Assembly: GCA_030620115.1 (NCBI GenBank)
Contig: JAUXFG010000067.1
Span: 1-19,817, forward strand
Reading direction: 5' to 3'
DNA: 19,817 bases
DNA from: Candidatus Fermentibacterota bacterium
GTDB taxonomy: Bacteria; JAFGKV01
Shown here: piece by piece, positions 301 through 18,452 of the stretch
Numbering within the stretch: position 1 is the stretch's first letter
How the letters are laid out: every line of letters begins with the position of its first letter
Notes under the pieces: generated by a model
Told to the model about the DNA's origin: nothing
The model's database searches: none
Seen by the model: only the letters and a program-made list of their open reading frames with translations
Program-made: the position numbers and the translations under genes

Positions 301-1118
301 TGCTGGAAGCGCAGGGACTGGTCAAAGCATACAAGAGACGAAGAGTGGTGGACGAGGTCGATCTCAAGGTGGCGCCGGGCAAGATAGTTGGATTGCTGGG
401 TCCAAACGGCGCGGGGAAGACCACGACCTTCTACATGATTGTAGGGCTCATCGCCGCTGATCATGGCGTGGTGAAGGTGGAGAACAGAGCTATTGGCCAT
501 CTTCCGGTGTATAAGAGAGCTCGCCTAGGGATCGGATATCTGAGCCAGGAGCCATCTGTTTTCAGAAGGCTCACCGTGGCCCAAAACATTGCCTCTGTCC
601 TAGAGACACTTCGAATCGAAGGTCCTGAACAAGAGACGAGGTTGAGCGAATACACTGAGTCCGGCGAGGGACCGGCGTGGTTCGTCAAGCGACGCGCGGA
701 ATTCAGGAGCAGGCGGCTCTCACGTGGCGAAATAAGGGATCGTGTAGACTCCCTGCTTCAGGAACTCGGCCTGGAGCATGTGGCGAATCAGCCCGCATAT
801 ACCTTGTCTGGAGGGGAGCGAAGGAGGGTAGAGATTGCCAGAGCGCTCTCCACTCGACCACGCTACATGCTCTTGGATGAGCCGTTCAGTGGCATTGATC
901 CGATCGCCGTCTCGGAGCTCCAGAGCATTGTCGAGGGTCTTCGTGAAAAAGGGCTCGGCGTGCTCATCACTGATCACAACGTGAGAGAAACCTTGGCCAT
1001 TACCAATTTTGCATATATCATGTTCGAGGGAAGGATTATGAGGGCTGGTTCTGCCGAGGAACTCGCCGATGATCCGGAAGCAAGAAAACTGTATCTTGGC
1101 CATAGATTTAGGCTATAG
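300..1118 (+). CDS. lptB: LPS export ABC transporter ATP-binding protein LptB
   Basis: Cytoplasmic ATPase that powers LPS extraction by LptFG. All ABC motifs are present: Walker A GPNGAGKT (residues 34-41), Q-loop glutamine at 83 in GYLSQEPSVFRRLTV (an LptB-typical sequence), signature LSGGERRRVEIARAL (169-183), Walker B YMLLDEP (189-195) and H-loop His226 in ITDHNVRETL. At 272 aa it is about 30 residues longer than the usual ~240. The excess lies at about residues 107-141, in the helical domain between the Q-loop and the signature, and is rich in charged residues (Glu/Arg). The ATG at 300 shares its A with the lptC TGA. The stop is at 1116-1118. Confidence is high because the signature and the lptC/rpoN neighbours agree. 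Confidence 0.96.
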   Translation: MLEAQGLVKAYKRRRVVDEVDLKVAPGKIVGLLGPNGAGKTTTFYMIVGLIAADHGVVKVENRAIGHLPVYKRARLGIGYLSQEPSVFRRLTVAQNIASVLETLRIEGPEQETRLSEYTESGEGPAWFVKRRAEFRSRRLSRGEIRDRVDSLLQELGLEHVANQPAYTLSGGERRRVEIARALSTRPRYMLLDEPFSGIDPIAVSELQSIVEGLREKGLGVLITDHNVRETLAITNFAYIMFEGRIMRAGSAEELADDPEARKLYLGHRFRL

Positions 1119-1284
1119 GGTTCGATCAGGAATGAATTTGCAGTTTGGGCGCCCAAATTCGTCGCAGCTGTGGTCTCCCCGAGAAAGCGAAACCGGAGGA
1201 ATAGTCCCGCCGATGGCGGGATGAAGATGGGATGCCCAAATGGGAAGTTGTTTCTGAGCGAGCTCTTTGCCCGGGAGTGAGCTG
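1119..1284. promoter_or_regulatory. lptB-rpoN intergenic with palindrome and hairpin
   Basis: This 166-base gap contains a perfect 14-base palindrome TTTGGGCGCCCAAA (1144-1157). A hairpin follows: TCCCGCC, loop GAT, GGCGGGA (1205-1221). Between them, 1171-1199 matches 16170-16198 at 26 of 29 positions, so it holds a short dispersed repeat. A Shine-Dalgarno-like GGGAG (1273-1277) sits 7 bases before the ATG at 1285 and supports that start for rpoN. The palindrome could be an operator, but no binding protein can be named. Confidence 0.45.
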
Positions 1285-2730
1285 ATGTCGGCGTTCGAGA
1301 TGGGTTTCGAACTGGGTCTGCGACAGGTTCAGAAGCTGGTGATGACTCCCCGGCTTCAGCAAGCCCTCCAGCTCCTCCAGATGCCCATGATGCAGCTCGA
1401 GGCGCTTATCGAACAGGAAGTTATGGCCAATCCTATCCTCGAAGTCACCCAGGAATCAGGGGCGGGGCAGGACGAGCGATCGACCAGTGAGGCCCAAGAT
1501 TCGGTACCCACTCAGCCTGACAAGGTCAAGTCCGCGGAGGAGCAGGAACGAAATGAGATAGACTGGAATCGTCTATTTGATCTCGATCAGATGAAGGGGG
1601 GGCGCTGGGAAAGGGAACGACGCCCCGCTGACGAGCGCGCACCCGAGATTGTGCAACAGACAGGAATGCGTGAATATTTTCTGGAAGAGCTGAGAATGAG
1701 CTCTCTCACGCCGATGCAGTTCGCAATCGGGGAGTATTTGGTGGGGAGCCTTGATGATGACGGCTACCTTCGGAGCACCACACCGGAAGAACTTGCCGAG
1801 AGGCTTGGTGTTTCCCTGGATGAGGTGGAGACGGTCAGAGAAACGTTGAAAGGGCTCGAGCCCGCCGGGATCGGATCCGTGGACCTGAGGGAATGCCTCC
1901 TTTCTCAGCTTGATGCCAGTGAAGAACGGAACTCCCCGGCATGGCGTGTGGTAGACGAGTTTCTGGATGACTTCATGCACAAGCGATTTCCGAAGCTTGC
2001 CAGTGCGCTGGATTGTACGGTGGAAGATGTTCAGAGCATCGCGGAACGGATCTCGCGGCTCGACCCGAAGCCCGGCGTGCGATACTCCACGGAAGACCCG
2101 GGTTATATCATCCCGGATCTGATCGTGGACAAGATCGAGGGCGAATATGTGGTGTATGCCAATGATCGGTATCTGCCCAGACTGAGGATCAGCCCCGTGT
2201 ATCAGGGAATCTTGGCACAGAGAGGAGACAGTGAAGCAAAGACATACCTTGGCGAACGGTTGAATGCGGCTCGGTGGCTCATCAAGACGATCGAGCAACG
2301 CCGACGGACCATGATCAAGGTGATGAGCCACATTGTCGACATTCAACGGGAATTCTTCGAGAAGGGAGAGCGGTATCTCAAACCACTGACCCTTCAGGAC
2401 GTAGCTGATGCGGTGGGCATGCACGAATCTACTATCAGCAGGGTGACTTCAGGGAAGTATGCACAGACACCAAGAGGAGTATATGAGCTCAAGTATTTCT
2501 TTGGCGGTGGGCTCCAGAAAAGGGGTGGCGAGCCGGTAAGCGTCCGCGCGGTCAGGAGGATCATCAAGGAGCTCATAGAAGATGAAGACCCCGACGATCC
2601 TCTCAGCGATGAGCGGATCGCATCCGAACTCAAGAGGAGAGGCTACAAGATTGCTCGGAGGACGGTAAGCAAGTACCGGGAACAGATGAATACCCTGCCG
2701 GCTCGACTGCGTTTGTACAAGATGGTGTGA
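1285..2730 (+). CDS. rpoN: RNA polymerase sigma-54 factor RpoN
   Basis: Sigma-54 directs polymerase to -24/-12 promoters and needs AAA+ activators. The protein opens with the glutamine/leucine-rich region I (RQVQKLVMTPRLQQALQLLQ), continues through the core-binding domain (around PMQFAIGEYLVGSLDDDGYL) and the DNA-binding part (ADAVGMHESTISRVTSGKY), and ends with the RpoN box ARRTVSKYRE at residues 457-466 of 481. Length fits the family. The ATG at 1285 is chosen because GGGAG lies 7 bases upstream and MSAFEMGFELGLRQ is a normal N-terminus; an in-frame TTG at 1267 would add six residues. An acidic linker, roughly residues 60-95, separates region I from the core-binding domain, as is common. 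The lptB-rpoN-hpf order is the conserved one. Confidence 0.97.
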   Translation: MSAFEMGFELGLRQVQKLVMTPRLQQALQLLQMPMMQLEALIEQEVMANPILEVTQESGAGQDERSTSEAQDSVPTQPDKVKSAEEQERNEIDWNRLFDLDQMKGGRWERERRPADERAPEIVQQTGMREYFLEELRMSSLTPMQFAIGEYLVGSLDDDGYLRSTTPEELAERLGVSLDEVETVRETLKGLEPAGIGSVDLRECLLSQLDASEERNSPAWRVVDEFLDDFMHKRFPKLASALDCTVEDVQSIAERISRLDPKPGVRYSTEDPGYIIPDLIVDKIEGEYVVYANDRYLPRLRISPVYQGILAQRGDSEAKTYLGERLNAARWLIKTIEQRRRTMIKVMSHIVDIQREFFEKGERYLKPLTLQDVADAVGMHESTISRVTSGKYAQTPRGVYELKYFFGGGLQKRGGEPVSVRAVRRIIKELIEDEDPDDPLSDERIASELKRRGYKIARRTVSKYREQMNTLPARLRLYKMV

Positions 2731-2872
2731 TGGTCTTGGTTGGCCCGCGTTTCTCATCAGCTCTCGTCGCCAAGCGGTCCCGCGCAGGCGCGGGATGGAA
2801 GAGTCCGATCTGCAGTTCCGCGAAGGACGAGGGAGTGAGATATGCGGGTAAGGGATCGAAAGGAGGACTCAT
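2731..2872. promoter_or_regulatory. rpoN-hpf spacer with strong hairpin
   Basis: Contains a perfect GC-rich inverted repeat: TCCCGCGC (2778-2785), AG, GCGCGGGA (2788-2795), followed by TGGAAGAG. No T-tract follows, so it is not a classical intrinsic terminator. It resembles the TCCCGCC/GGCGGGA hairpin in front of rpoN in its outer bases (TCCCGC...GCGGGATG). A strong AGGAGG (2861-2866) lies 6 bases before the hpf ATG. Confidence 0.45.
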
Positions 2873-3232
2873 ATGAGGGTCACGATCACGGGGAGACATT
2901 TGGAACTATCCGAGGCATTGAAGAATCACATCCAAGAGAAGATGAGCAAATTGGAGCGTTACTCGATGCGTATCCCCGAGGCCAATGTAACCCTTGATGT
3001 TGAGAAGTATCGGCATAGGGCGGAGGTGAATCTCCATGTCAACCATTCGATTCTCACCTCCAAGGAAGAATCGGACGACATGTATGTGTCGGTTGACGCT
3101 GCCATAGACAAGGTCGAGCGAATGCTTCGACGTTACAAGACCAAGCACAGTCGGAAACATCAGAAGGTTCTTCCGGAATCTCCCCCGGAGCAGGAGGAGG
3201 AGTTCGAGGAGGATATCGAGGAGGAGTTTTAA
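2873..3232 (+). CDS. hpf: Ribosome hibernation-promoting factor, HPF/YfiA family (short form)
   Basis: Binds the 30S decoding centre and stabilises idle ribosomes in stationary phase or stress. The N-terminus MRVTITGRHLELSEALKNHIQEKMSKLERY is diagnostic for the S30AE fold, followed by the NVTLDVEKYRHRAEVNLHVN strand pair and the DDMYVSVDAAIDKVERMLRRYK helix. At 119 aa it is a short or medium form: the long form's C-terminal dimerisation domain is absent. Instead there is an acidic tail (residues ~100-119, EQEEEFEEDIEEEF). AGGAGG at 2861-2866 with 6-base spacing fixes the start. Position directly after rpoN is the classical one. Confidence 0.95.
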   Translation: MRVTITGRHLELSEALKNHIQEKMSKLERYSMRIPEANVTLDVEKYRHRAEVNLHVNHSILTSKEESDDMYVSVDAAIDKVERMLRRYKTKHSRKHQKVLPESPPEQEEEFEEDIEEEF

Positions 3233-3448
3233 CCGCCTATCCCGGACTTCTCACCGGGTTTCGAAGCGAAACAGCCGAAATGGTTCTGAATACGAGGCTT
3301 CCAGCAACAGACCCACTCCCGGCCATCACCGAGTGTCCGGAGCCGTAGGTTGAAATCGAGAAAGACGTTCATTCTGATTGGCACGAGACTGCCGAAAGGC
3401 CTGGAACCCGAAACCCAAAACCTGTGAATACATTCAAGGGAAGATAGT
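3233..3448. other. hpf-hprK spacer with small hairpins
   Basis: A 216-base non-coding gap. Just after hpf are CCCGG (3241-3245) / CCGGG (3254-3258) and, next to it, GTTTCG AAG CGAAAC (3258-3272); both are weak stems without a U-tract. A Shine-Dalgarno-like AAGGGAAG (3436-3443) precedes the hprK ATG by 5 bases. No gene is seen. Confidence 0.4.
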
Positions 3449-4414
3449 ATGCCACAAGTCGCCTCCAGCTCACTCTTCAATGCCAAGAAGGACGATCTTC
3501 AGTTAGAGACACTGACTGGTGTGGAATCTCTGGATACGCTCCTGTTTTCCAGCGAGGTCAATCGACTGGGGTTGTGTCTGGCCGGTTACACGGGCGAGTT
3601 CCTCGAAGGAGGTGTGCAGATTCTCGGTCAGACGGAGGCGGCCTACCTCGAAAGACTATCCGCTGAGAGCGCGCAAGGGGCATTGCATGAGATATTGCAG
3701 TATAAGATACCCCTCTTGGTCTTGACGCGTGCTCTTGATCCGCCGGAAGGGCTTCTCGAGCTTGCGAAGGAGCGGGGTGTTCCTGTCCTGCGCACCAAGA
3801 TGGCCACGGGGGAGTTTATTCGCAGGCTTTGCGCATACCTGGAATATATGCTTTCACCGAGGGTCTCGAAGCATGGAACGCTGGTGGATGTGTATGGGGT
3901 TGGTCTCCTTTACACCGGTCGTGCGGCCATAGGAAAGAGCGAATGTGCGCTGGATCTCATTGAGAGAGGGCACCGACTTGTGGCAGACGATATTGTGACC
4001 ATATTCAGGAAGGGGCAGGTCCTCATCGGCCAGGCGAACGAGCTCACCGGGTACCATATGGAGATCAGAGGGGTCGGGATTATCAATATCGAGACATTGT
4101 TCGGCGTGCGTGCGGTGCGGTTGCAGAAGCGAGTAGAGGTAGTAGTCAATCTCGCGGAGTGGGATGGCCAGGGGGACTACGAGCGGCTCGGTATGGAGTA
4201 CGAGACAACAACGATTCTTGGCGTCGAAGTACCGAGAGTGACGATTCCAATATTTCCGGGGAAGAACATCACCGTGATCGGGGAGGTGGTGGCGATGAAT
4301 CACATACTTCGTGTGTGTGGCTGCAATCCTGCCGCAGAGTTTGGGAGCCGACTGGTCCAACTCCTTCGCCAAAAACGGTCGGCCGGCTCATATCTGGAAG
4401 AGGATGAGGAATAG
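3449..4414 (+). CDS. hprK: HPr kinase/phosphorylase
   Basis: Bifunctional enzyme that phosphorylates HPr on Ser46 with ATP and also removes that phosphate. Domain order is as expected: an N-terminal regulatory domain (about 1-130), catalytic His142 in KHGTLVDVYG, P-loop GRAAIGKS (157-164), paired aspartates in LVADDIV (180-181) and the HprK signature EIRGVGIINIETLFGV (205-220). Length 321 aa is normal. The P-loop keeps GxxxxGKS but has Ala where most HprK have Gly (GxSGIGKS), and the usual PVRPGRN segment reads PIFPGKN here. Both are noticeable but conservative. The 3' end runs into the HPr gene, which starts immediately after its stop or within its last codons. The partner (HPr with Ser46) is encoded next door, so the pair is self-consistent. 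Confidence 0.95.
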   Translation: MPQVASSSLFNAKKDDLQLETLTGVESLDTLLFSSEVNRLGLCLAGYTGEFLEGGVQILGQTEAAYLERLSAESAQGALHEILQYKIPLLVLTRALDPPEGLLELAKERGVPVLRTKMATGEFIRRLCAYLEYMLSPRVSKHGTLVDVYGVGLLYTGRAAIGKSECALDLIERGHRLVADDIVTIFRKGQVLIGQANELTGYHMEIRGVGIINIETLFGVRAVRLQKRVEVVVNLAEWDGQGDYERLGMEYETTTILGVEVPRVTIPIFPGKNITVIGEVVAMNHILRVCGCNPAAEFGSRLVQLLRQKRSAGSYLEEDEE

Positions 4415-4418
4415 AACG

Positions 4419-4688
4419 GTGACCGAGATAACGGTAACCATCAAGAATAGCCTGGGCATCCATGCCCGTCCTGCAGCGCTTTTTGTCAAAGTAGCCGCAC
4501 AGTTCAAGTCAAACATCACCGTTTCGCGAGATGGGATGGACGTGAATGGCAAGAGTATCATGGGTATCCTTATGCTTGCGGCAGAACAGGGGGCCCGTCT
4601 CATCGTGCGTGTGGAAGGGGACGATGCGGACGAGGCTCTCGATGCGGTCGTGGATCTTGTTGAGAGAAGAACGTTTGACGAGGAATAG
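4419..4688 (+). CDS. ptsH: Phosphocarrier protein HPr
   Basis: Small phosphocarrier of the PTS and substrate of HprK. With the GTG start at 4419 the protein is 89 aa, and the two hallmark residues fall exactly at classical numbering: His15 in LGIHARPAA (Enzyme I site) and Ser46 in NGKSIMGILML (HprK site). GAGGA (4406-4410) precedes the GTG by 8 bases. An upstream in-frame ATG at 4404 would add five residues, overlap hprK by 11 bases and have a poorly spaced ribosome-binding site. Transcription with hprK is almost certain. Neither Enzyme I nor any EII gene follows in the window, so HPr here may serve mainly as an HprK-controlled regulator; that is inference, since ptsI could be elsewhere. Confidence 0.93.
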   Translation: MTEITVTIKNSLGIHARPAALFVKVAAQFKSNITVSRDGMDVNGKSIMGILMLAAEQGARLIVRVEGDDADEALDAVVDLVERRTFDEE

Positions 4689-7099: not shown

Positions 7100-8529
7100 C
7101 AGCTCAGTATTGCCCGCGCCGCTTCGAAGAGCAATCGAAGGTCAGCCATGGTTTTTGTCTGCGAGAGAATAGCCCACAATTGCCTTGGCCTCAGGTAGAA
7201 CTCCTTCATGGACCGCCGTTGCCACCGCTTCATCTCCTCACCGGTTCTTCCTTTTGGCGTGAAGAGAGGCTCATACGAGGAGAATCCGACCATTGAGCTC
7301 GCGCGTGACCAGTCGTGGCTTGTGAGAAGCCCCTGTTCTTCAGCAATCTTGCAGAGTTCGGTGCCGGGATAGGGTGTGGCGAGACTGAATTTCGCGAAAT
7401 CCGCACCCAGGTTCTTCGCAAACTCCACAGTGGCTCTTGTCTCATCTTCAGTCTCGGTGGGCAGTCCGATGATGAGCGTGGTGCGAACACGCATGCCGGC
7501 ACGTTTCGCCCACCGAACCGCGTTTACGCTGTCTTTGAGGGTGATCTCCTTCTTGATCATTTTCAGGAGCCGAGCCACGCCCGTCTCCACTCCAAATGAA
7601 ATCAGGCGGCAACCGGCTTCGTACATGCGGGCAAGCATGTCTGGATCTACCTCGTCCACCCGCCCATTGCATGCCCAGATGAGTCGTTTCGAGAGGCCTG
7701 TCTCCAAGAGAGAATCGCATATGCTCATGACACGTTTTCGGTTGACGATGAAGTTGTCATCGAGGAAGACAACCTCTCGCGCGTCGAACTGCCGTACAAG
7801 ATCCTCCACCTCCGAAACGACCCTCTCGTGCCTGTGGAAGCGGTATCTCCGTCCGGAAAGGAGCCGGGCAGAGCAGAAGATGCATTGATACGGGCAGCCC
7901 CGCGACGTGATGAGTGACTGGATCTTGCGCGGGTTGGTCATGGTGATTTCCGGTGCGGGGCGATAGAGATCGTTCTTGAGAAGATGCCTGGCGGGCCGAG
8001 GGAGAGAATCGAGTTCATCCACCACAGGAATCGGTGGGGCATGGATCACGTCTCCGTCGGCGCGTAGACTCACACCAGCGATCTGCGTCACCCCTCCGCC
8101 CTCTGACACCGTACGGGCCAATTCGGCAATGATTGTTTCGGCTTCGCCGCGCACTGCGACATCGATGCCGGGCAGATCAAGCATTTCCTCAGGCAACACC
8201 GTAGGGTGAATCCCGCCTGCGATGACTGTTGCGTCAGGTAATAACTCATGCGTGAGTTTCGCCACGGCTTTTACTTGCGCAAGCATGGGGCTATAGACCG
8301 TGATACCAACGACTGTGGGCTGAAACGAACGAAGCTCTGCCTCCAGGGACGCGAGACCAGCAGGCTCGACTTGGCCATCCCAAATGGATACCGGAATCCC
8401 CTCCAGCTCCAGGGCGGCAGCGAGATAGGTGGATCCCACGGGTAAAAGGGAAGGCCCTGCCTTGGCCAGCCGGCCGAAGTGCGCCTCGAGATCAAAACTC
8501 GGATTGATGAGCAGAACTCGTGTGTTCAT
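7099..8529 (-). CDS. B12-binding-domain radical SAM protein (class B type)
   Basis: 476 aa. The N-terminal cobalamin-binding domain (about 1-165) shows MNTRVLLINPS, VGITVYSPM and the VIAGGIHPTVLPEEML-VAVRGEAE segment characteristic of this family. The radical SAM domain carries CPYQCIFCS (Cys212, Cys216, Cys219), preceded by SLITSRG, and later VVFLDDNF and FGVETGV. Members include methyltransferases and ring-forming enzymes such as those of the BchE group; the reaction here cannot be assigned. The start (CAT at 8527-8529) has only a weak AGGAA about 9 bases upstream. It is the promoter-proximal gene of a two-gene minus-strand operon. Confidence 0.88.
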   Translation of the reverse strand: MNTRVLLINPSFDLEAHFGRLAKAGPSLLPVGSTYLAAALELEGIPVSIWDGQVEPAGLASLEAELRSFQPTVVGITVYSPMLAQVKAVAKLTHELLPDATVIAGGIHPTVLPEEMLDLPGIDVAVRGEAETIIAELARTVSEGGGVTQIAGVSLRADGDVIHAPPIPVVDELDSLPRPARHLLKNDLYRPAPEITMTNPRKIQSLITSRGCPYQCIFCSARLLSGRRYRFHRHERVVSEVEDLVRQFDAREVVFLDDNFIVNRKRVMSICDSLLETGLSKRLIWACNGRVDEVDPDMLARMYEAGCRLISFGVETGVARLLKMIKKEITLKDSVNAVRWAKRAGMRVRTTLIIGLPTETEDETRATVEFAKNLGADFAKFSLATPYPGTELCKIAEEQGLLTSHDWSRASSMVGFSSYEPLFTPKGRTGEEMKRWQRRSMKEFYLRPRQLWAILSQTKTMADLRLLFEAARAILS

Positions 8530-8612
8530 TTGGATTGATTCCTGAAATTCATGTCCCAGTATTCCGGCATCCAGGTGATGCTCGGACCCAGATTCATCGG
8601 TGGCTCCACTCC

Positions 8613-8749
8613 CTCAGAATGACACCCATTCCCCCTTCTCGAAATCCCCTCGGTCTCATTCGACGTTGGACGTTCGATGTTGGATGTTCAATCCCGCATT
8701 CTCCCATTTCCCCTGTCATTCTGAGCGACTGGAAGGAACGAAGAATCTC
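8613..8749. repeat. Repeat A inverted pair enclosing repeat B
   Basis: CTCAGAATGACA (8613-8624) is the reverse complement of TGTCATTCTGAG (8714-8725). The right arm continues as GCGACTGGAAGGAACGAAGAATCT to 8749. Between the arms lies a repeat B unit (8659-8694). The arrangement parallels the 5749-5833 copy. Confidence 0.7.
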
Positions 8750-9007
8750 TCTTGCATCCTTCCTCCATCATCTGCACGCTCTCTTCTCCCCAATCCCCCA
8801 ATCACCCATCCCCAATCGCTTAGCAATCATATCTATTCCGAAGGAGCCTGCGTTCACGAATATCATCGAGTACGGATGGTTCTTGCACTGGCGTCACAAG
8901 CAAAGGATATTGACCACGTTTGCAAGCAAACCCGGAATGTGCCATTTCACCGGCCGTTCCGGCCGGGAGGACCGAAGACGGAAGACAGTGGACAGAGGAC
9001 AGCCATA

Positions 9008-9031
9008 TGGAGTGCGGCGACATGTCGCCGC
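9008..9031. repeat. REP-like palindrome introduced by TGGAGTGCG
   Basis: TGGAGTGCG (9008-9016) runs into the perfect 18-base palindrome GCGGCGACATGTCGCCGC (9014-9031). The same nonamer leads into a GC-rich palindrome at 18646-18670, so both belong to one dispersed palindromic family. Confidence 0.65.
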
Positions 9032-9148
9032 CAACGCCCACCGTCGAAGAGGGGCTTCTCCATTGGATGTTCGATGTTCAATTCCTCAAGGTTGCAAATG
9101 GACAACGAATTGTCTACTTCGCTTCTGTAAGCGGATAGGGGAAGCTCT

Positions 9149-10804
9149 ATGGGATGTAGTCAAATCCTTTGCTTATTCGCGATTCTGAGCGGAGGAACCA
9201 TCTCGCCCAGTGATGTTGAACCGGGGATGACCGGCTGGGGTTCCACCGTGTTCAAGGGTGTTGAACCTGATACATTCGGGGTCACGATCCTTGGGGTCAC
9301 CCAGAGAGGTTCCACTCCCGGGGGGCAGCGGATATTGGTTCGACTCACTGGGGCGCAGATTGAGAGTACCGGTGTTGCCGCTGGGATGAGCGGGAGCCCG
9401 ATCTTCATGAATGGACATCTGCTTGGCGCCCTGTCCGCCTCCTTCCCATTCTCCAGCGAGCCCATGGCCCTGGTGACTCCGATTGCGGGCATGCTGCAGG
9501 AATCCACTAGGGGAGGGAAGCGCATTGTCTCCATGCCTGGAGCCCGGCTTCCATTGGCGGGTTCAGGGCCCGGCTTTACCCCTGAGGCGCTTTCAATCAT
9601 TTCGGGACAACTAGGAACAGGGTGCATGATCCTCACCAGTGGGGGCGCCGAAGTCCCGGCGGGAACTGCGGGAGAGCTGGCCCCGGGGCAGCCGGCATCG
9701 GTGGTTCTCGTTGATGGTGATTGGAATCTTGCGGTCACGGGCACGGTCACATGGAGAGATGGTCAAGACCTCGCGGCTTTCGGTCATCCATTCCTTGGGT
9801 TAGGCGAGGTTGATCTTCCATTGGCTGGAGGCAGTGTCACGGCGGTGGTGCCCAGTAGAGCGCTCTCATTCAAGATCGGGAGCACAGGACCCATCGTTGG
9901 TCGTGTTCGCTTCGACGGATCCAACGGGATTCGCGGTGAGGTTGGTGATCCTCCGCCCATGCTTCCCCTGCACGTGGAAGTCGGCACACCGGCAAGGAAG
10001 CATTTCGATCTTCGCCTTGCCCTTCATCAGTCGGTCACGCCGATACTCTTGCGGACCTGTGTGGCGAACTCCATGGGCGCCGTTGAAGGGGCCATGGCAA
10101 GCAATGTCAGCGCTCGGCTTCAGTTGTTCCTGAACGGCGGAAACGAGCGCGGCGTCACGAGCATAAGGAGAGGTCTCGGCGCAGTGCAGGCAGTGGCAGA
10201 GGAGATGAGCGGGTTGCTGAACGGTGTGTTGAACTGTCCCCTCGGACCCATCACCGTGGATTCGCTTCACGTGAAAATGACCGTGACGCCGATGCCACAG
10301 GAATTCTTTCTCCATAGCATCGCCCTCGCCCCACCTGGAGTCGTGCCTGGCGCAGACCATCTTTCGGTGCGCGTGGAACTCTTGACCAATACCGGCGAGA
10401 TGTTTTCCACGCGTGTCAAACTGGATCTTCCTCCAGGTCTGTCGGGGAAGAGGCTTACTATCCGAGCCGGAGACTACGAGGCCATGAACCGATGGGAGAA
10501 GGAGCGATCGCCGCTCCTCCACGTGCCAGGCTCCATGGAGGAGTATCTGGATGAGCTTCTTCCCTCGTGGATGCCCGATCGGCTTTATCTTGTATTGTAT
10601 TCGGCCACCGAAGGTTGGAGCAGGAGGGGGGGAGAAGTTTCCCGGCTGCCAAGGAGCTTTGCGAAGATCCTGGGTCGGGCGAACCAGATGGGTGAATTTG
10701 ATCTTCCAAGACAGAGTGTGCTCTCGAGGACCGAGTTGGGGTTCGATGGGCGTGTCTATGGAAGCGCCGTTATCGAATTGCCGTCAACCAGGGGGAAACA
10801 GTGA
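9149..10804 (+). CDS. SpoIVB S55-type peptidase-domain protein, secreted or membrane-associated
   Basis: 551 aa. The N-terminus has a hydrophobic stretch (ILCLFAIL, residues 6-13) without a positively charged n-region. The S55 signatures follow: DVEPGMTGWGSTVFKG (22-37), the Ser motif GMSGSP (79-84, putative nucleophile Ser81) and FGHPFLG (211-217) with His213. Catalysis is predicted only by resemblance to Bacillus SpoIVB, the protease that triggers the sigma-K checkpoint. Here the Ser motif precedes the His motif, whereas SpoIVB as I know it has His first. The C-terminal half (about 300-551) is unassigned. AGGGG lies 7 bases before the ATG, and a TAA stands just upstream in frame. The GTG of the next gene overlaps its TGA, so it is the first gene of a long operon. 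Confidence 0.82.
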   Translation: MGCSQILCLFAILSGGTISPSDVEPGMTGWGSTVFKGVEPDTFGVTILGVTQRGSTPGGQRILVRLTGAQIESTGVAAGMSGSPIFMNGHLLGALSASFPFSSEPMALVTPIAGMLQESTRGGKRIVSMPGARLPLAGSGPGFTPEALSIISGQLGTGCMILTSGGAEVPAGTAGELAPGQPASVVLVDGDWNLAVTGTVTWRDGQDLAAFGHPFLGLGEVDLPLAGGSVTAVVPSRALSFKIGSTGPIVGRVRFDGSNGIRGEVGDPPPMLPLHVEVGTPARKHFDLRLALHQSVTPILLRTCVANSMGAVEGAMASNVSARLQLFLNGGNERGVTSIRRGLGAVQAVAEEMSGLLNGVLNCPLGPITVDSLHVKMTVTPMPQEFFLHSIALAPPGVVPGADHLSVRVELLTNTGEMFSTRVKLDLPPGLSGKRLTIRAGDYEAMNRWEKERSPLLHVPGSMEEYLDELLPSWMPDRLYLVLYSATEGWSRRGGEVSRLPRSFAKILGRANQMGEFDLPRQSVLSRTELGFDGRVYGSAVIELPSTRGKQ

Positions 10805-12816
10805 TTCGTCTTATCCTGGTCTTGTTGTTTTTGCCCCAATTAGTGCTATCGGCTGGGAGCAGATATTTTACCATTTCGAGCTTTTTTGATTGGACATCCG
10901 GACATGGCGTGGGCGTGCAGATGTGGTCCCCAGGGGGCATCTCTCCCGCCGCTCGTCTTGATTCTGTGGTTTTGGCCGATGAGGAGTATGTCTGGTCGCT
11001 CTGTCCCGTGCGGGAAGGGGGAGTATTCGTGGGAACCGGGGGAGGGGGACGGATCTATCGGCTGTCAGGTGGAGAGCTCTCCTTGTTCTTCGATTCACCG
11101 GAGAGCGACATCCTCTGCCTCCTGGAGGAGAATGATGGGTGGCTATGGGCTGGTTGTTCCCCAGACGGTCTTGTGTACAGAATCAGTCCGGACGGTACTT
11201 CAGTGGAGGAATTCAGAACGGATCAAGGATCGATCTGGAGCATGGCACGCTTCGAGGGTGGTGTGGTGGCTGGCACGGGACCGGAAGGCAAGCTTTTCTT
11301 GTGTGAACCGGGAGAGGAAGCACGGGAGCTCGCCTCGATCTCTGCGGCCAATGTCATGTCGCTGGTGGTCCTGCCGGATGGTGACATCCTCGCGGGGGGA
11401 GAATCGCCGGGCTTGGTGCAGAGAATCGACAAGAAAGGGCATGTGTTCACCATCGCGCGACTCGACTATCAGGAGGTTCGAAGCCTGCACATCGTTGGGG
11501 ACGACTCGCTGGCGCTTATTGCGCTCACCCCCACATCATCAATTCTAGGACCGCAAGCATCCGTGCTTACGGGCACGTTATGGGGTCCCTTGGAGGGGTT
11601 CTGGGCCTCGCCTGATTCACTGCTTCTTGATATGGTGACCTGGGAAGGCTGCTTGACCGTGGTGGGGGGATGGCCCGGCAGAGTCTATTGCCTGGAAGAC
11701 CGTCGCTCCTTCAGACGCGCGGTGGCGACGGGGCGCGCGCAGATCCTTTGTGCCACGGTAGGAGAGGAGAATCGTCTCTACTTGGGGGCAGGGAGCCCGG
11801 CATGCGTCTATTGGGTGGACAAGAAGGCTTCAGAGGAGGCAACGTGGCGATCTCTTCCTCTCGATGCCCGCACTACTGCCACGTGGGGGCGTGTCGAGGT
11901 GATGACTGCAGGGAACTCCAAACCCCAGATCTGGGCGCGGTCAGGCAATCTTGGTGAGCCGGATGACGGGTGGAGCTCGTGGACCAAGGCCGACCGCTCG
12001 AATGGCGGGTGGAACCTTAAGATCCCGGCTGCCCGGTTTGCCCAGGTGAAGCTCGTGCTCTCGCCAGGATCAACGAGGCAATCCCCGGATGTCGATTGGC
12101 TGCAAATCAGCTACCTGCCTGCCAATCAGGCGCCAAAAGTGACCAAATTTGAGCTCCTGGCAAAAGGAAAGAAACCCCGTGGCGTCTATCGTCCCATCAC
12201 AAGCATATCCTCCTCCACACTCAAGCTTTCCACAAAGAAAAATCAGAAGGCGGAGAGCATAAAACCCGAGAGCAGCACCGGCAATGATGATCGATATCTC
12301 TCCTGGGAGGCACGGGATCCGGACGGGGATGAGCTCCTGTACTCCATTGAGTTCAAGCAGTACCCGGGAAGCTCCTGGATCGTCTTGGACAAGGATCTGG
12401 AGACCCGATATGTACGCCTTTCGCGGGGAAGGCTTGCGGATGGATGGTATACCTTTCGGCTCATAGCCAGCGATCTACCGGTTAATCCACCGGAGCGTGC
12501 GCGCGAATCGACTCGCGATTTGGGCCCGGTGCTGGTTGATGAGTCGCCCCCCCTCGTTGCGAAGCTTTCGTGGAGTATGTCACAGGGGATTCGTTTTGCA
12601 GAGGTCGTGGTAGAGGATAAAGGCAGCGGCGTGGTACAGGCGGCTATCTCAGTGGATGGAGCGCCCTGGCATATTGTCGATCCCGAGGACAAAGTGGCGG
12701 ACTCCAAGCGGGAGAGATTTCGGTTGCCGGTGGGTCATGCTCGGGCGAGCGTATCTCTCAGGCTCAAGGATCGTGCGGGGAATGTGGCGGCCATAGCCTT
12801 GGGTCTGCCCAAGTAA
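10801..12816 (+). CDS. Exported beta-propeller protein with C-terminal Ig-like region
   Basis: 671 aa with a clear signal peptide (MIRLILVLLFLPQLVLSAGS). At least four blades recur every ~40 residues with the pattern hydrophobic-x-GTG-xx-G-x-hydrophobic-Y-R: about residues 64-91, 104-132, 145-171 and 185-213. A further related unit lies near 312-340 (YLGAGSPACVYWVD). A discoidin/sheet-like stretch follows (about 365-440, WARSGNLGEPDDGWSSW) and then an Ig/cadherin-like region containing DPDGDELLYSIEF. The function is likely extracellular or periplasmic binding; no enzyme motif is seen. The GTG start overlaps the S55 gene stop by four bases (GTGA), implying coupling. The sigma-factor gene follows after 30 bases. 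The exact family is not recognised. Confidence 0.82.
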   Translation: MIRLILVLLFLPQLVLSAGSRYFTISSFFDWTSGHGVGVQMWSPGGISPAARLDSVVLADEEYVWSLCPVREGGVFVGTGGGGRIYRLSGGELSLFFDSPESDILCLLEENDGWLWAGCSPDGLVYRISPDGTSVEEFRTDQGSIWSMARFEGGVVAGTGPEGKLFLCEPGEEARELASISAANVMSLVVLPDGDILAGGESPGLVQRIDKKGHVFTIARLDYQEVRSLHIVGDDSLALIALTPTSSILGPQASVLTGTLWGPLEGFWASPDSLLLDMVTWEGCLTVVGGWPGRVYCLEDRRSFRRAVATGRAQILCATVGEENRLYLGAGSPACVYWVDKKASEEATWRSLPLDARTTATWGRVEVMTAGNSKPQIWARSGNLGEPDDGWSSWTKADRSNGGWNLKIPAARFAQVKLVLSPGSTRQSPDVDWLQISYLPANQAPKVTKFELLAKGKKPRGVYRPITSISSSTLKLSTKKNQKAESIKPESSTGNDDRYLSWEARDPDGDELLYSIEFKQYPGSSWIVLDKDLETRYVRLSRGRLADGWYTFRLIASDLPVNPPERARESTRDLGPVLVDESPPLVAKLSWSMSQGIRFAEVVVEDKGSGVVQAAISVDGAPWHIVDPEDKVADSKRERFRLPVGHARASVSLRLKDRAGNVAAIALGLPK

Positions 12817-12846
12817 ACCTGATCTCCATCAGTGCGTCCTATTCCA

Positions 12847-13446
12847 ATGAAACAACTGGAGGATGCAGATGATACGCTCCTGATTGAGAAGTCACGTCAG
12901 GGGAACACCAAGGCTTTTGATGAGTTCATGAGGCGTCACCGTGCGCGAGTGATCCGTATTGCACGAGGCATGGTGTCGGATGAAGAAGACGCGCTGGACA
13001 TGGCTCAAGAGGCATTCATGAAGGCTTTTGATTCCATAGGGAAATTCAGGGGTGATTGCTCGCCTCGCACATGGATCGACCGCATCGTGGTGAACAGATG
13101 TGTTGATTGGCAGAGACGACGGAAGGTCAAGCGCAGACTCCTGGTGCTCGTCGGAAAACGTGATGAAGGCGCCAGTCTGGAAGAGATGGCGCCGGATACG
13201 TCATGGGAGGCTGACCCGATCACCACCATGGATCGTGAGAAGATCAGGAAGGCAGTGAACCAGGTTCTCGCCTCTCTGCCCGCGAAACAGAAAGCGGCAT
13301 TCATTCTGCGGCATTGGGAAGGGCGCTCCACCAAGGAAGTCGCGCTCGTGCTTGAGTGTGCCGAAGGCACGGCGAAGGTGCATCTTCACCGGGCCACCGA
13401 GAGAATGCGTGCGGTACTGAAGCCGTTTCTGGAGGAAGAAGCATGA
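12847..13446 (+). CDS. ECF-type RNA polymerase sigma factor
   Basis: 199 aa, sigma-70 family group 4. Region 2 includes AFDEFMRRHRARVIRIARGM, the DALDMAQEAFMKAF helix and FRGDCSPRTWIDRIVVNRCVDW. Region 4 is LPAKQKAAFILRHWEGRSTKEVALVLECAEGTAKVHLHRA. Such factors are held by a cognate anti-sigma and released by an envelope signal. The ATG at 12847 was preferred; an in-frame GTG at 12832 would add five residues and neither has a good ribosome-binding site, so the start is uncertain. The stop (TGA 13444-13446) overlaps the anti-sigma ATG by four bases, the standard coupled arrangement. Confidence 0.94.
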   Translation: MKQLEDADDTLLIEKSRQGNTKAFDEFMRRHRARVIRIARGMVSDEEDALDMAQEAFMKAFDSIGKFRGDCSPRTWIDRIVVNRCVDWQRRRKVKRRLLVLVGKRDEGASLEEMAPDTSWEADPITTMDREKIRKAVNQVLASLPAKQKAAFILRHWEGRSTKEVALVLECAEGTAKVHLHRATERMRAVLKPFLEEEA

Positions 13447-13901
13447 TCGACCCACGGCAAGGATGCCCCAGCGAACAGGTCTTGACCGAGTTTGTGCACG
13501 GTGTGCTCACCGAGGGGGAACGTCAAAAGGTGCGCCATCATCTCGAGACATGCGTGGACTGTCGGCGTGTCGTGGGGGAACTGAACAGCCTTCTGACCCT
13601 GGGCGAAGCGCCTGAACTGTCCGATCCCGGAGATGCCTTCAATCGGGCCGTGTGGAGGCGCATGGAGAGCCGGAAAGCGAGAAGACGGATGGGAGTCGCC
13701 CTTTTGCCCGCGCTGGCTGCCGCGGTGGCGCTCTTTATTATTCTTCCGCTTGGAAACGAGGGCAAGATGGCGCTGGAAGAGGAGCTTGTGGAGCGGCTCG
13801 ACCTCTACCAGAACATGGAGCTCATCGAGAACCTCGATCTTCTGGAGCAGTTCCAGGTTCTGATGGAATTCGAAGGCGACGACGAATCGTTGGATCTATG
13901 A
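13443..13901 (+). CDS. Anti-sigma factor with zinc-binding ZAS domain, single membrane span
   Basis: 152 aa. The N-terminal cytoplasmic domain has HLETCVDC (His33, Cys37, Cys40), the HxxxCxxC motif of zinc-finger anti-sigma factors. One transmembrane helix lies at about 83-103 (GVALLPALAAAVALFIILPLG). The remaining ~48 residues would be periplasmic and acidic/leucine-rich: MELIENLDLLEQFQVLMEF, then EGDDESLDL. It should sequester the preceding ECF factor. The ATG (13443) lies in ATGA with the sigma stop, and its own TGA (13899-13901) forms ATGA with the next gene. The tail motif recurs in that neighbour. Confidence 0.93.
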   Translation: MIDPRQGCPSEQVLTEFVHGVLTEGERQKVRHHLETCVDCRRVVGELNSLLTLGEAPELSDPGDAFNRAVWRRMESRKARRRMGVALLPALAAAVALFIILPLGNEGKMALEEELVERLDLYQNMELIENLDLLEQFQVLMEFEGDDESLDL

Positions 13902-14209
13902 CGGTCATACAACTATCAGTGGGTCTTGTTGCCATGCCGCTGATGCTGTCTCTCCTTTTTGGTGTGATGCTTGGTGCACAGGCCGTATCCGACAGCAGCA
14001 AGAGCGAGCCGAAATCGCCCCCTCAGGAGGGCGACAAGGAGTCTCGTGCTGCGCATGCGGAGCCTGACAGTGCCGATTTGGAACTGTTGCAGGAACTCGA
14101 CATTCTTATGGATCTGGAGTTGCTCCAACTGTTTGATCTTGTGGGAGAGGCTGACCTCGATATCGGGCTCCCCCTGCCTGAGGAGGCGCGAAGTGAGAGC
14201 ACAAACTAG
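13898..14209 (+). CDS. Small exported leucine/acidic protein, unknown function
   Basis: 103 aa, start ATG in ATGA overlap with the anti-sigma gene. The N-terminus is a signal peptide or anchor (LMLSLLFGVMLGAQA, ending near residue 29), followed by a low-complexity polar linker (DSSKSEPKSPPQEGDKESRA). The mature part has LELLQELDILMDLELLQLFDL, then an acidic end. That leucine pattern aligns with the anti-sigma tail (MELIENLDLLEQFQVLMEF). I do not recognise a named family. A role as interaction partner or competitor of the anti-sigma periplasmic tail is inference. Its 3' end overlaps the DUF3106 gene by 17 bases. Confidence 0.75.
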   Translation: MTVIQLSVGLVAMPLMLSLLFGVMLGAQAVSDSSKSEPKSPPQEGDKESRAAHAEPDSADLELLQELDILMDLELLQLFDLVGEADLDIGLPLPEEARSESTN

Positions 14210-14777
14210 AAGAGACAGGGCTCGCGTGTGGTGTGCCGCCTCGTGGCTCAGCAGTTTGATAGTCGCCTGTGTCTTGCTCATGGCCACGGTGACTGGTCGA
14301 GTCTATGCCTCCACAGAATCTCCGGATTCGGCCGTGCGGACACATCCTGATTCATCCTCCCTTCAGGTACGCTGGGAGGAGCTGAGCCCGGATGAAAAGG
14401 AACGACTCCTTGACGCCTATGCACGATGGAAGAGCCTTCCTGAAGAACAACAGGCGAGGATCAGAGAGAATCTCACCCTTTGGCGATCGCTTTCGCCGGA
14501 GGCTCGGGAACGGCTGAGAGAGGCGAAGCATCGTTTTGATGGCCTGAGTGCGGAACGAAAGAAGATTGTGCTAAGGAATTGGGTGCGGTGGAGAAGCCTT
14601 CCGGACAATCGCCGGCGGACTCTCAAGAGGATTTGGACAAGATTGAGGACATTTCCCCCTGTTACGCGACGCAGGCTCGCCAGGGGGTTGCGGAACTGGG
14701 GTCGGCTCACGCCAACCCAGCGCAACCGGCTTCTTCAGGTTTGGAGACAAGGCTCTCGACCAGCAGATCACGAGTGA
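14193..14777 (+). CDS. DUF3106-type exported helical repeat protein
   Basis: 194 aa from the GTG at 14193. AGGAGG (14181-14186) lies 6 bases upstream and is the best ribosome-binding site in the cluster, so this start is favoured although it overlaps the previous gene by 17 bases. The signal or anchor is about residues 17-39 (WLSSLIVACVLLMATVTGRVYA). Then come roughly 20-24-residue repeats of the W-x-x-L-S-P-x-E-R-x-R-L type (WEELSPDEKERLLDAYARW, LWRSLSPEARERLREAK, WGRLTPTQRNRLLQVW), the DUF3106 pattern. DUF3106 proteins are found beside ECF/anti-sigma genes in other bacteria. The mature part is strongly basic (Arg-rich), opposite to its acidic neighbour. Its molecular role is unknown. Confidence 0.85.
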   Translation: MRAQTRRDRARVWCAASWLSSLIVACVLLMATVTGRVYASTESPDSAVRTHPDSSSLQVRWEELSPDEKERLLDAYARWKSLPEEQQARIRENLTLWRSLSPEARERLREAKHRFDGLSAERKKIVLRNWVRWRSLPDNRRRTLKRIWTRLRTFPPVTRRRLARGLRNWGRLTPTQRNRLLQVWRQGSRPADHE

Positions 14778-15745
14778 GCGAAACGCCCGGTCTGTCCGTC
14801 ATAATCCCCGTCAAAGATGGGGCGGAACTGCTGAGGGGATGTCTCGAGAGCCTGTGGGCCATGGATTTCCCGCGGGAGTGCTTGGAAATCCTTGTGGTGG
14901 ACAACGGCTCCACTGACGCCAGCGCTGAGGTGGCACGCGCTCATGGCGCCCGGGTAATTCGGGAAGATCGGCCCGGACCCTACGCGGCCCGAAACGCGGG
15001 AGTCGGCGCGGCTCGAGAAACCATTATCGCATTCACCGATGCTGATTGCCGCGTTGACAAGGGATGGGCTCGGGCGATTCAGGCGGCCATGAAGAAGTTC
15101 GATGCGGTCTGCGGCCTGAGCTTAGGGAGTGAGGGAGGAGCAGTAGCGAGGCTGATCCAGGAAAGATATGAGAAGAATCTTGTGGGCCGAGCACGAGCAA
15201 CTCCGCGCATGCCGGTGTTTGATACGCGGAACGCAGCCACGACTAGAGCAGCCTTCCTGGCAGCCGGCGGTTTTGATTCCAGGCTCGAGGATATCGCCGA
15301 TGATCTCTACGGCATCGCCCTGGCTCGCCGCGGCACACGGGTTGGCTTTTTCCCTTCCATGGTGGTTTACCACATTCACCCCGAATCCCTCTCCGACGTA
15401 CTCAGAAGACAGAAGCGACACGGCCGGTTCATACCATTGGTACGGCAGCTCTATGGCCCGGAGATGGCGGAGTATTTCCCCGGCATTCTCAAGTATGGAT
15501 TCGTGGACAGGAAAGGAATTGCCGGCAAAGCCCCCAGCGCCCTGCTGTTGCTTGGGGCTGCCGTTGCCGCCACCTTCTTGCGGTTGAAGCTCCTGATCTT
15601 CATGCACGTTGGTCTCGCGGGAATCAGAACTCTCCTCTTCGATTGGTTCTGCCGCTTCGGAACCGTCTGGGGAATCTCCGAGATAGGCCTCTCAGGCGTA
15701 GCCCACCACGTGGCCACGCTCGGCGAGCGCCTTCCCCTGGAGTAG
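14774..15745 (+). CDS. Family 2 glycosyltransferase
   Basis: 323 aa, GTG start overlapping the DUF3106 stop (GTGA). The GT-A fold is clear: LSVIIPVKDGAELLRGCLESL (7-27), ILVVDNGSTDAS (39-50), RNAGVGAAR and the metal-binding DAD (89-91) in AFTDADC. A later HIHPESLSDVLRRQKRHGRF fits the C-terminal part of GT2 enzymes. A hydrophobic segment (ALLLLGAAVAATFL, then KLLIFMHVGLAG) suggests membrane association, so a lipid-linked or envelope glycan acceptor is plausible. The substrate is unknown. Its last 117 bases (15629-15745) are repeated at 18063-18179. A longer upstream frame exists but would overlap DUF3106 extensively. Confidence 0.9.
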   Translation: MSETPGLSVIIPVKDGAELLRGCLESLWAMDFPRECLEILVVDNGSTDASAEVARAHGARVIREDRPGPYAARNAGVGAARETIIAFTDADCRVDKGWARAIQAAMKKFDAVCGLSLGSEGGAVARLIQERYEKNLVGRARATPRMPVFDTRNAATTRAAFLAAGGFDSRLEDIADDLYGIALARRGTRVGFFPSMVVYHIHPESLSDVLRRQKRHGRFIPLVRQLYGPEMAEYFPGILKYGFVDRKGIAGKAPSALLLLGAAVAATFLRLKLLIFMHVGLAGIRTLLFDWFCRFGTVWGISEIGLSGVAHHVATLGERLPLE

Positions 15746-16076
15746 CCTATCCCAAAACCTCATCGGGAGATTCCCCCACCACCTCCCCAAACCTCGTCTC
15801 GAACTCTGCTTGCCACGCCGAAGCCATCCGACGAAGGCGGGTCCCGAACTTCCCCTCCTCATCCCAGAACTTCGTCGGGAGCTTCATCGGGAGCCTTGTC
15901 CCAGTCTCCGTCCCAATTCCTCCCTTCCCTCTCCCAACCTTGGATGTTTCCGCCAGCTGGCGGATTGGATGTTCGTCTCCGTTCTTCCAGCTCACCAGCT
16001 CAAGAGCTCATCAGCTTAGCAGCTCAACAACTGTCATTCTGAGTGAGTGAAAGGAGCGAAGAATCTCTCCGGGATT
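15629..16076. repeat. Long direct repeat, copy 1 (GT2 3' end plus downstream)
   Basis: Matches 18063-18452. Over the first ~177 bases I count four differences, all transitions (about 98% identity). This copy carries extras absent from copy 2: about 35 bases at 15806-15840, a 16-base palindrome TCCGCCAGCTGGCGGA (15949-15964) inside repeat B, and short additions around 15989-16030. It ends with repeat A at CCGGGATT. Internal TCATCGGGAG / TCGTCGGGAG words recur. Confidence 0.92.
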
Positions 16077-16397: not shown

Positions 16398-16730
16398 TCA
16401 GAACCACAAGTGACGATCGAGCGCCACCCGCAACTTCCCGATCAGCTCCTCGGGAAGTGATCCGACGAACTGGATCAACCTTGCACGGGAAACCGTTCTG
16501 ATTTGTTCGCAGAGCGCCTTGCTATTGCGATCGAGGCCTCCTTCGCTGGCAGGAATGAGAATCTGGAAGGGGTAAATCCTATCCACCCGAGACGTGAGCG
16601 GAATCACGGTAACGGTAGCGCTTGTACGATTGGCGAGTTCATTCTGGAGCACGATCGCAGGACGGCGCTTTCCGACCTCCGATCCCACCACAGGATCGAG
16701 GTTCACCATGTACACGTCTCCGCGTTTCAC
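16398..16730 (-). CDS. mazF: MazF/PemK-type endoribonuclease toxin
   Basis: 110 aa from GTG (16728-16730), which overlaps the antitoxin TGA by four bases (GTGA). On the minus strand GGAAGG lies 6 bases upstream. The MazF fold is plain: KRGDVYMVNLDPVVGSEVGKRRPAIVLQNE at the start, then TVIPLTS and the EQIRTVSRARL segment. The Arg in KRRP and Thr in PLTS match residues needed for RNA cleavage in the family. It should cut mRNA when released from its antitoxin. An ATG at 16760 would give ten extra residues overlapping the antitoxin in another frame and is disfavoured. Confidence 0.94.
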   Translation of the reverse strand: MKRGDVYMVNLDPVVGSEVGKRRPAIVLQNELANRTSATVTVIPLTSRVDRIYPFQILIPASEGGLDRNSKALCEQIRTVSRARLIQFVGSLPEELIGKLRVALDRHLWF

Positions 16731-16951
16731 GTGAGGCCTTCCACTTCGGTGACCTCCCACTCAGGGTCCAGCGATGGAGCCTCCGCCTCTTGTCGGTAGC
16801 CTTTCTCCATAGCCAGAGCCAAACATTCGCGCTCCAGGCGAGAGAGTCTCTCAGCAATCGCATTACGCACAAAAGCACTCAGGGAGCTGTTGGGGGAGGC
16901 ACGCCGGGCTTTTTGGACTAGATCATCGGGCAAAATGACTGTGGTGCGCAT
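16727..16951 (-). CDS. mazE: Ribbon-helix-helix antitoxin, MazE type
   Basis: 74 aa. The N-terminal RHH DNA-binding region is MRTTVILPDDLVQKARRAS plus the helix SSLSAFVRNAIAERLSRLE. The C-terminal EWEVTEVEGLT matches the usual toxin-binding tail (W...GL). The ATG (16949-16951) has AGGAG about 7-8 bases upstream. A longer frame to 16999 begins inside the promoter and is unlikely. It precedes the toxin gene in a coupled pair. It should repress its own promoter with the toxin as co-repressor. Confidence 0.92.
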   Translation of the reverse strand: MRTTVILPDDLVQKARRASPNSSLSAFVRNAIAERLSRLERECLALAMEKGYRQEAEAPSLDPEWEVTEVEGLT

Positions 16952-17873: not shown

Positions 17874-18062
17874 AGTGGAGCTTTCCGCCTTTCTCATGCG
17901 ATCCTGTCAGCGTCTCGAGGAGAGGGCTCCCCGGGTAAAGGGACTTGCAGGGAAAGTGGCGATGTTATTGCGGAGTCGCAATCCCAGCGATGGCCCCGGC
18001 AACGAAGGCACGGATTCCAACTACGTCGGCGAAGAGGACCATTCCATGGGTGATGGCAGAGC
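17874..18062. other. Spacer upstream of the kinase-like gene
   Basis: About 190 bases ending exactly where direct repeat copy 2 begins. On the minus strand, 17965-18062 reads as a short hydrophobic peptide (AITHGMVLFADVVGIRAF, then VAGAIAGIATPQ, stop). It could be the tail of a lost membrane-protein gene, but 30 residues is too little to name. Confidence 0.3.
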
Positions 18063-18179
18063 ACTCTCCTCTTCGATTGGTTCTGCCGCTTCGGAACCGT
18101 CTGGGGAATCTCCGAGACAGGCCTCTCAGGCGTAGCCCACCACGTGGCCACGCTCGGCGAGCGCCCTCCCCTGGAATAG
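18063..18179 (+). pseudogene. 3' fragment of the GT2 glycosyltransferase gene
   Basis: Encodes the last 38 residues of the glycosyltransferase (from LLFDWFCRFGTVWGISE on) with the same stop position (TAG 18177-18179). One codon changes Ile to Thr (SEIGL to SETGL) and another Leu to Pro (GERLPLE to GERPPLE). A TGA at 18051-18053 lies in frame just upstream and no start codon is available, so it is a non-functional remnant produced by the duplication. Confidence 0.88.
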
Positions 18180-18452
18180 TCTATCCCAAAACCTCATCGG
18201 GAGATTCCCCCACCACCTCCCCAAACCTCGTCTCGAACTTCGTCCCGAACTTCCCCTCCTCCTCCCAGAGAACCTCGTCGGGAGCCTCATCGGGAGCCTT
18301 GTCCCAGTCTCCGTCCCAATTCCTCCCTTCCCTCTCCCAACCTTGGATGTTCGATGTTCGATGTTCGCCTCCGTTCTTCCAGCTCAAGAGCTCATCAGCC
18401 CAACCACTGTCATTCTGAGTGACTGGAAGGAGCGAAGAATCTTTCCGGGATT
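18063..18452. repeat. Long direct repeat, copy 2
   Basis: Matches 15629-16076 in the same orientation, offset 2434 bases at its start. It lacks the ~35-base and 16-base palindromic additions present in copy 1 and is thus shorter (390 versus 448 bases). It ends with repeat A (18407-18452) and the same CCGGGATT boundary. Confidence 0.92.

Follow-up and report, generated by a model that had tools for sequence, protein, structure and literature searches.

A seven-gene cluster in a Candidatus Fermentibacterota genome is the union of two modules that also exist separately. Module A pairs an S55-type serine protease homologue with a beta-propeller protein, and module B comprises an ECF sigma factor, a ZAS anti-sigma factor, a small Leu-rich protein and a DUF3106 protein. 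The protease domain is likely a circular permutation of the SpoIVB domain, and the attachment of module A to ECF–ZAS genes has recurred in a second lineage, the acidobacterial class Terriglobia.

The cluster and its two modules

The cluster occupies positions 9149–15745 of the window, by which we mean the whole 19,817-nt stretch of DNA analysed (contig JAUXFG010000067.1). As the initial annotation had described, it consists of seven plus-strand genes, joined by five overlaps (4, 4, 4, 17 and 4 nt) and interrupted by a single gap of 30 nt; coordinates and junctions agree throughout. The genes and the anti-sigma tail are as follows.

9149–10804, plus strand: S55-type (SpoIVB-like) serine protease homologue, apparently exported, with an apparently circularly permuted domain
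10801–12816, plus strand: exported beta-propeller protein (Reg_prop), whose gene almost always follows the S55 gene (Pfam, synteny)
12847–13446, plus strand: ECF sigma factor (Pfam Sigma70_r2/r4)
13443–13901, plus strand: ZAS anti-sigma factor (zf-HC2) with a single predicted TM segment followed by a periplasmic tail of ~48 residues (Pfam; TM and topology from sequence)
13755–13898, plus strand: periplasmic tail of the anti-sigma factor, with the Leu/acidic motif ELVERLDLYQNMELIENLDLLEQF
13898–14209, plus strand: small Leu-rich protein, exported, with a putative tail motif at about 14072–14143 (profile and shuffles in three orthologues)
14193–14777, plus strand: DUF3106 helical-repeat protein, exported, a frequent partner of ZAS genes (Pfam)
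14774–15745, plus strand: GT2 glycosyltransferase, the seventh gene (Pfam Glycos_transf_2; kept in the relative G001)

GTGA overlaps of 4 nt join the S55 gene to the propeller gene and the DUF3106 gene to the GT2 gene, ATGA overlaps are found at the ECF/ZAS and ZAS/Leu-rich junctions, and the Leu-rich and DUF3106 genes share 17 nt. The gap separates the propeller and ECF genes, where an alternative in-frame GTG start for the ECF gene is possible at 12832. For the GT2 gene, the overlapping GTG at 14774 is a likelier start than the TTG at 14579 of the mechanically called ORF.

Pfam agreed with the family assignments made at first reading, with the qualification that the S55 protein matches only half a domain, just below threshold (PF05580, profile positions 128–191 of 210; 24.9 bits, cut-off 25). 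The propeller protein matched Reg_prop, the anti-sigma factor zf-HC2 and the seventh product Glycos_transf_2. The ECF protein carries Sigma70_r2 and Sigma70_r4 without r3, and the adjoining anti-sigma factor has an H-x3-C-x2-C motif and one TM segment, the latter predicted from its sequence. DUF3106 (PF11304) was matched at 82.4 bits against a gathering cut-off of 24.3, and the small Leu-rich protein had zero Pfam matches.

The phylum sample comprises three genomes, namely the source genome and the relatives G001 and G002, deposited as Candidatus Fermentibacteria and Candidatus Eisenbacteria. A survey of gene order, which the initial annotation had recommended, found the order conserved in both relatives: G001 carries all seven genes in identical order (L042/L111), and G002 keeps the S55 gene through the Leu-rich gene up to the contig end (L043/L112). 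Because the source and G001 proteins are only about 45% (S55) and 59% (ECF) identical, the order has outlasted real divergence, and, given its recurrence in G001 and G002, the seven-gene arrangement exceeds chance.

Each module is also found on its own. Of the 67 named loci that could be assayed, 63 have a propeller gene directly 3' of the S55 gene; they span many phyla, including Latescibacterota, Gemmatimonadota, Acidobacteriota, Eisenbacteria, KSB1, WOR-3, Krumholzibacteria, Poribacteria, Calditrichota and Myxococcota, among others. An adjoining ECF gene is absent from most of these loci, with a co-directional neighbouring ECF in only five named loci, so that the pair must have an ECF-independent job. 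One acidobacterial contig (L170) carries two divergently oriented S55–propeller pairs, at 1755–3530 and 8001–9722. DUF3106 genes, for their part, adjoin ZAS genes in several unrelated genomes, with no S55 gene in the stretches read. Such clusters (e.g. G094, G077 and G066) resemble the source cluster in having an ECF gene, a ZAS gene with the same tail motif and DUF3106 downstream; they differ in that no S55, propeller or GT gene occurs in the stretches read and no separate Leu-rich exported protein was identified. Where ECF–ZAS–DUF3106 genes stand without S55 alongside, activation would proceed through other proteases or none.

The DNA flanking the cluster has features of its own. A 180-nt direct repeat (15626–15805 and 18060–18239, 97% identity), with further blocks extending to about 16076 and 18452, duplicates, 2.43 kb away, the 3'-terminal part of the GT gene together with the intergenic DNA that follows it. 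A dispersed intergenic element containing CATTCTGAGTGAGTGAAAGGAGCGAAGAATCTC occurs in three copies (8687–8758, 16005–16076 and 18381–18452; 63–100% identity). By reading of ORF translations, positions 300–4688, upstream of the operon, resemble lptB, rpoN, hprK and HPr genes, and a minus-strand ORF at 16398–16760 resembles the PemK/MazF-type toxin of a toxin–antitoxin pair.

Linkage of the S55–propeller pair to ECF–ZAS genes

In Terriglobia, the 30 propeller hits closest to the query include 28 assayable loci, of which 24 show the order S55–propeller–ECF–ZAS on one strand; this sample is biased towards the query's lineage and does not give a class-wide rate. These loci, which continue into a DUF4097 gene, share with the source cluster the first four gene types, their strand and their order. 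They differ in belonging to another ECF lineage, in having a longer ZAS, in the replacement of the Leu-rich, DUF3106 and GT genes by DUF4097, and in carrying separate promoter-like motifs before their two halves. Synteny of the S55 and propeller genes with the ECF/anti-sigma pair, on which the initial annotation had made its proposal depend, thus holds in all three phylum genomes and independently in Terriglobia.

In the S55 tree, co-directional linkage needs at least two label changes, and the starred branches force at least two origins. The ECF tree, whose backbone is unresolved, contains three ECF groups that are each monophyletic and do not group together; the source-phylum and Terriglobia ECFs form separate lineages with 28–31% identity. 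A single ancestral origin of the S55–ECF link was considered and is unlikely, given the changes in the S55 tree and the separate ECF lineages. A third acidobacterial clade (L118, L145 and L183) has ECF–ZAS genes convergent with the S55–propeller pair, showing that adjacency need not imply co-expression.

Sigma genes, counted by region 4 matches, number 14–42 per genome in the eight genomes checked (≥3.5 Mb), or about 3–8 per Mb, a density at which a same-strand neighbour within 1 kb would arise by chance in <1% of loci. On the basis of the repeated linkage and this low density, we argue that the association is probably functional; the recurrence does not itself give the direction of information flow. 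The modules might instead be mere neighbours, the S55–propeller pair serving some unrelated purpose in the envelope or in secretion and the ECF–ZAS–Leu–DUF3106 genes forming an independent stress switch that landed downstream. This agrees with the occurrence of each module alone in many genomes and with the convergent third clade, but it must accommodate two independent co-directional linkages, each kept over large divergence (propeller identity across linked loci falls to about 38%), and a sigma-gene density of merely a few per Mb. We regard it as unlikely, though a serious competitor.

Promoter-like motifs were compared between the two lineages. In 17 of 20 Terriglobia loci, the sigma-70-like pattern TTGACG-N16/18-TAGACT finds its best match immediately upstream of S55, and in 17 of 20 the ECF-type pattern ACAACT-N14/16-CGCATC finds its own 61–81 nt ahead of the ECF gene (L247–L266); since the hexamers were picked by eye from the same loci, these counts express conservation and position and are not an independent test. 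The ECF-type motif was not seen before S55 in Terriglobia. This distribution suggests that the two halves there are under separate promoters and that the ECF is self-regulating, so that a single transcript is not general. The ECF-type motif overlaps an inverted repeat, CCGCATCTCA ... TGAGGTGCGG, which may form a leader hairpin.

The source cluster is organized otherwise. Its 30-nt propeller/ECF gap is too small for such promoters, which would have to lie within the propeller gene; neither of the two motifs was recognised in the window. Upstream of 9149, no sigma-70-like promoter was found and no Terriglobia-like ECF-type motif was recognised, leaving the shared ECF-type promoter that the initial annotation had suggested looking for at this position without a candidate. 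It is from the gene overlaps only that one transcript may be suggested for the source cluster.

Anti-sigma tail and a proposed signalling route

ZAS proteins adjoining DUF3106 in unrelated genomes share a C-terminal Leu/acidic motif, and the source ZAS tail scored 27.1 bits against a profile built from six DUF3106-linked ZAS tails only. Three orthologues of the Leu-rich protein scored 10.5–11.1 bits against the same six-tail profile, with 2, 2 and 0 of 5000 composition shuffles scoring as high; their E-values were 0.2–0.3, the case consisting of the agreement of three mutually related orthologues together with the shuffle control. These matches suggest that the small exported protein and the periplasmic tail of the anti-sigma factor have this motif in common.

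We lean, at a little short of even confidence, towards a fused two-module operon in which the S55–propeller protease is a site-1-type cutter of the ZAS tail. The propeller would assist the protease in sensing or binding an envelope signal or substrate, and the active S55 protease would open the cascade with a site-1-type cut in the tail. A site-2 protease of the M50 type, which the source genome does encode, would then release the ECF, and the freed ECF would drive its own regulon. DUF3106 may bind the ZAS tail motif, and the Leu-rich protein, presenting the same motif, would compete for DUF3106 and so set the threshold, the two together controlling how accessible the tail is. What we infer in this scheme is that the genes are transcribed together, that the S55 protein is proteolytically active, that the ZAS tail is its substrate and that the Leu-rich protein acts as a decoy.

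The proposed route resembles regulated intramembrane proteolysis of the RseA/DegS/RseP type in combining an ECF, a single-TM anti-sigma factor, an exported chymotrypsin-fold serine protease and M50 proteases in the genome. In contrast to that system, the site-1 candidate is operon-encoded, S55-like and accompanied by a propeller instead of a PDZ domain, and the ZAS tail is short, at ~48 residues, and bears a Leu/acidic motif. An envelope-sensing circuit that comes with its own protease and sensor, as the initial annotation had envisaged, is plausible, with partial support: synteny, a conserved triad, export and the M50 genes favour it, whereas the usually ECF-free state of the pair and the separate motifs in Terriglobia weaken it.

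Information could also flow in the opposite direction, with the S55–propeller pair as an output of the ECF, that is, a target within an envelope-maintenance operon whose anti-sigma factor is released by an HtrA-type protease or by DUF3106/Leu ligand sensing. The wide occurrence of the pair without an ECF, pointing to an autonomous envelope role, the overlapping genes, which would place the pair in the ECF–ZAS transcript, and the existence of DUF3106 systems without S55 all fit this account. However, the Terriglobia pair is preceded by a sigma-70-like and not an ECF-type motif, and no Terriglobia-like ECF-type promoter stands before 9149. We consider it improbable to about the same degree as mere neighbourhood, and retain cleavage of the ZAS tail by the S55–propeller protease as the preferred reading.

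Newly seen here are the likely permuted S55 domain and the apparent repetition of the anti-sigma tail motif in the Leu-rich protein. More broadly, and with more doubt than the cleavage scheme itself, these data could reflect a large undescribed family of exported, permuted SpoIVB-type proteases that act with a propeller in many phyla and have been recruited at least twice to ECF anti-sigma factors, with a tail-mimic competitor in the present cluster. If true, a permuted protease with a near-fixed propeller in many uncultured phyla would amount to an envelope protease system that has so far gone unrecognised. Having been attached repeatedly to ECF/anti-sigma genes, it would be a testable candidate for the first-acting protease that is still missing from many ECF systems, and the tail-mimic protein would offer a simple, testable means of setting the threshold of such a switch. 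Terriglobia include cultivable Acidobacteriota, in which testing may be feasible.

Lobe order in the S55 protease domain

Two lobes can be delimited in the S55 protein.

9206–9496, plus strand: Ser lobe, residues 20–116, containing GMSGSP with the candidate catalytic Ser81 (codon 9389–9391) (PF05580 positions 128–191; VIA-align)
9662–10003, plus strand: His/Asp lobe, residues 172–285, containing His213 (9785–9787) and Asp256 (9914–9916), downstream of the Ser lobe (hhalign; Foldseek)

The GMSGSP serine motif is invariant in 59 of 59 homologues and lies in a lobe that corresponds to the C-terminal one in proteases of the chymotrypsin fold. PF05580 matches 58 of these 59, the matched half being the Ser half. 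Ser81, His213 and Asp256 are likewise invariant in all 59. A GH motif follows the Ser motif by about 130 residues and is also downstream in the homologues read. In the relative G041, both PF05580 halves were matched but with their order inverted, the match to the His half being weak (E 0.07). The canonical SpoIVB His-lobe profile aligned with the downstream region at 27.5 bits, His on His (hhalign); none of 300 column shuffles reached this score (maximum 22.4), and the reversed control gave 13.1.

In VIA-align, residues 14–113 of the full-length model (pLDDT 87.6, pTM 0.89) matched HtrA and norovirus proteases in their C-terminal lobe, at Z 7–8. The His lobe was not placed specifically on the N-terminal barrel by VIA-align, because the two barrels are alike. 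Modelled in isolation (AF2, pLDDT 91), it retrieved SpoIVB (9lnf) as the first Foldseek match among 350,542 chains, with a probability of 0.99 and a weak E of 0.16. A Foldseek search with the whole model returned mostly unrelated beta-rich proteins and HtrA, with weak E-values, and the case for permutation leaned on the VIA-align ranges and the isolated-lobe search. The VIA-align and Foldseek matches are each weak alone; together with the PF05580 half-matches and the His-lobe profile, they make it likely that the domain is a circular permutation of the SpoIVB domain, in the order Ser lobe, linker, His/Asp lobe. As read from the strand list of the model, Asp256 appears to come after strand five of the His barrel, which is where Asp102 stands in chymotrypsin.

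A non-permuted protein, in which a SpoIVB Ser lobe only is fused to an unrelated beta-domain, would explain why Pfam and PDB sequence searches detect the Ser lobe alone and why the isolated His lobe has weak Foldseek E-values (0.16 for SpoIVB), but it is very improbable in the face of the invariant His213 and Asp256, the profile match with aligned histidines that no shuffle equalled, the family member with inverted PF05580 halves (weak as its His half is) and the first rank of SpoIVB for the isolated lobe. The S55 protein looks exported and is probably a secreted, active protease, as predicted from its sequence. No PDZ match was found by Pfam in the protein or its 59 homologues at E 0.01. A literature search, with most subscription journals outside its coverage, returned no paper on S55 domains or a permuted S55 protease, nothing on DUF3106 and, judged by title, nothing on chymotrypsin-like proteases that are circularly permuted in nature.

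Comparison with SpoIVB of Bacillus subtilis (MEROPS S55; PDB 9lnf) separates what is shared from what is not. The Ser lobe, with GMSGSP, shares 33% identity with a canonical SpoIVB (L063) across 86 columns, the His-lobe profile matches, and both proteins are exported and tied to sigma-factor control. In canonical SpoIVB, however, the His lobe stands ahead of the Ser lobe, whereas the order is reversed here, and the S55 protein has a long beta-rich C-terminal region and lacks a PDZ match. SpoIVB itself works in the processing of pro-sigma-K and not on an anti-sigma factor (PMC12502668). The S55 protein is therefore not an orthologue or functional equivalent of SpoIVB, and is instead a relative with a differently arranged domain; of the analogy first drawn with SpoIVB, the retained Ser, His and Asp residues and the related lobes stand, and equivalence of arrangement and function does not.

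The third catalytic residue of SpoIVB is debated, Asp363 lying about 24 Å from His236 in the crystal structure (PMC12502668). Equivalents of SpoIVB Asp363 and Thr393 are not conserved in the S55 homologues. Asp256, invariant in the S55 family, corresponds to an Asn in 20 of 20 canonical SpoIVB sequences in an alignment anchored on the G-I-x-G motif, an equivalence that depends on this anchor, since hhalign places a gap in that stretch.
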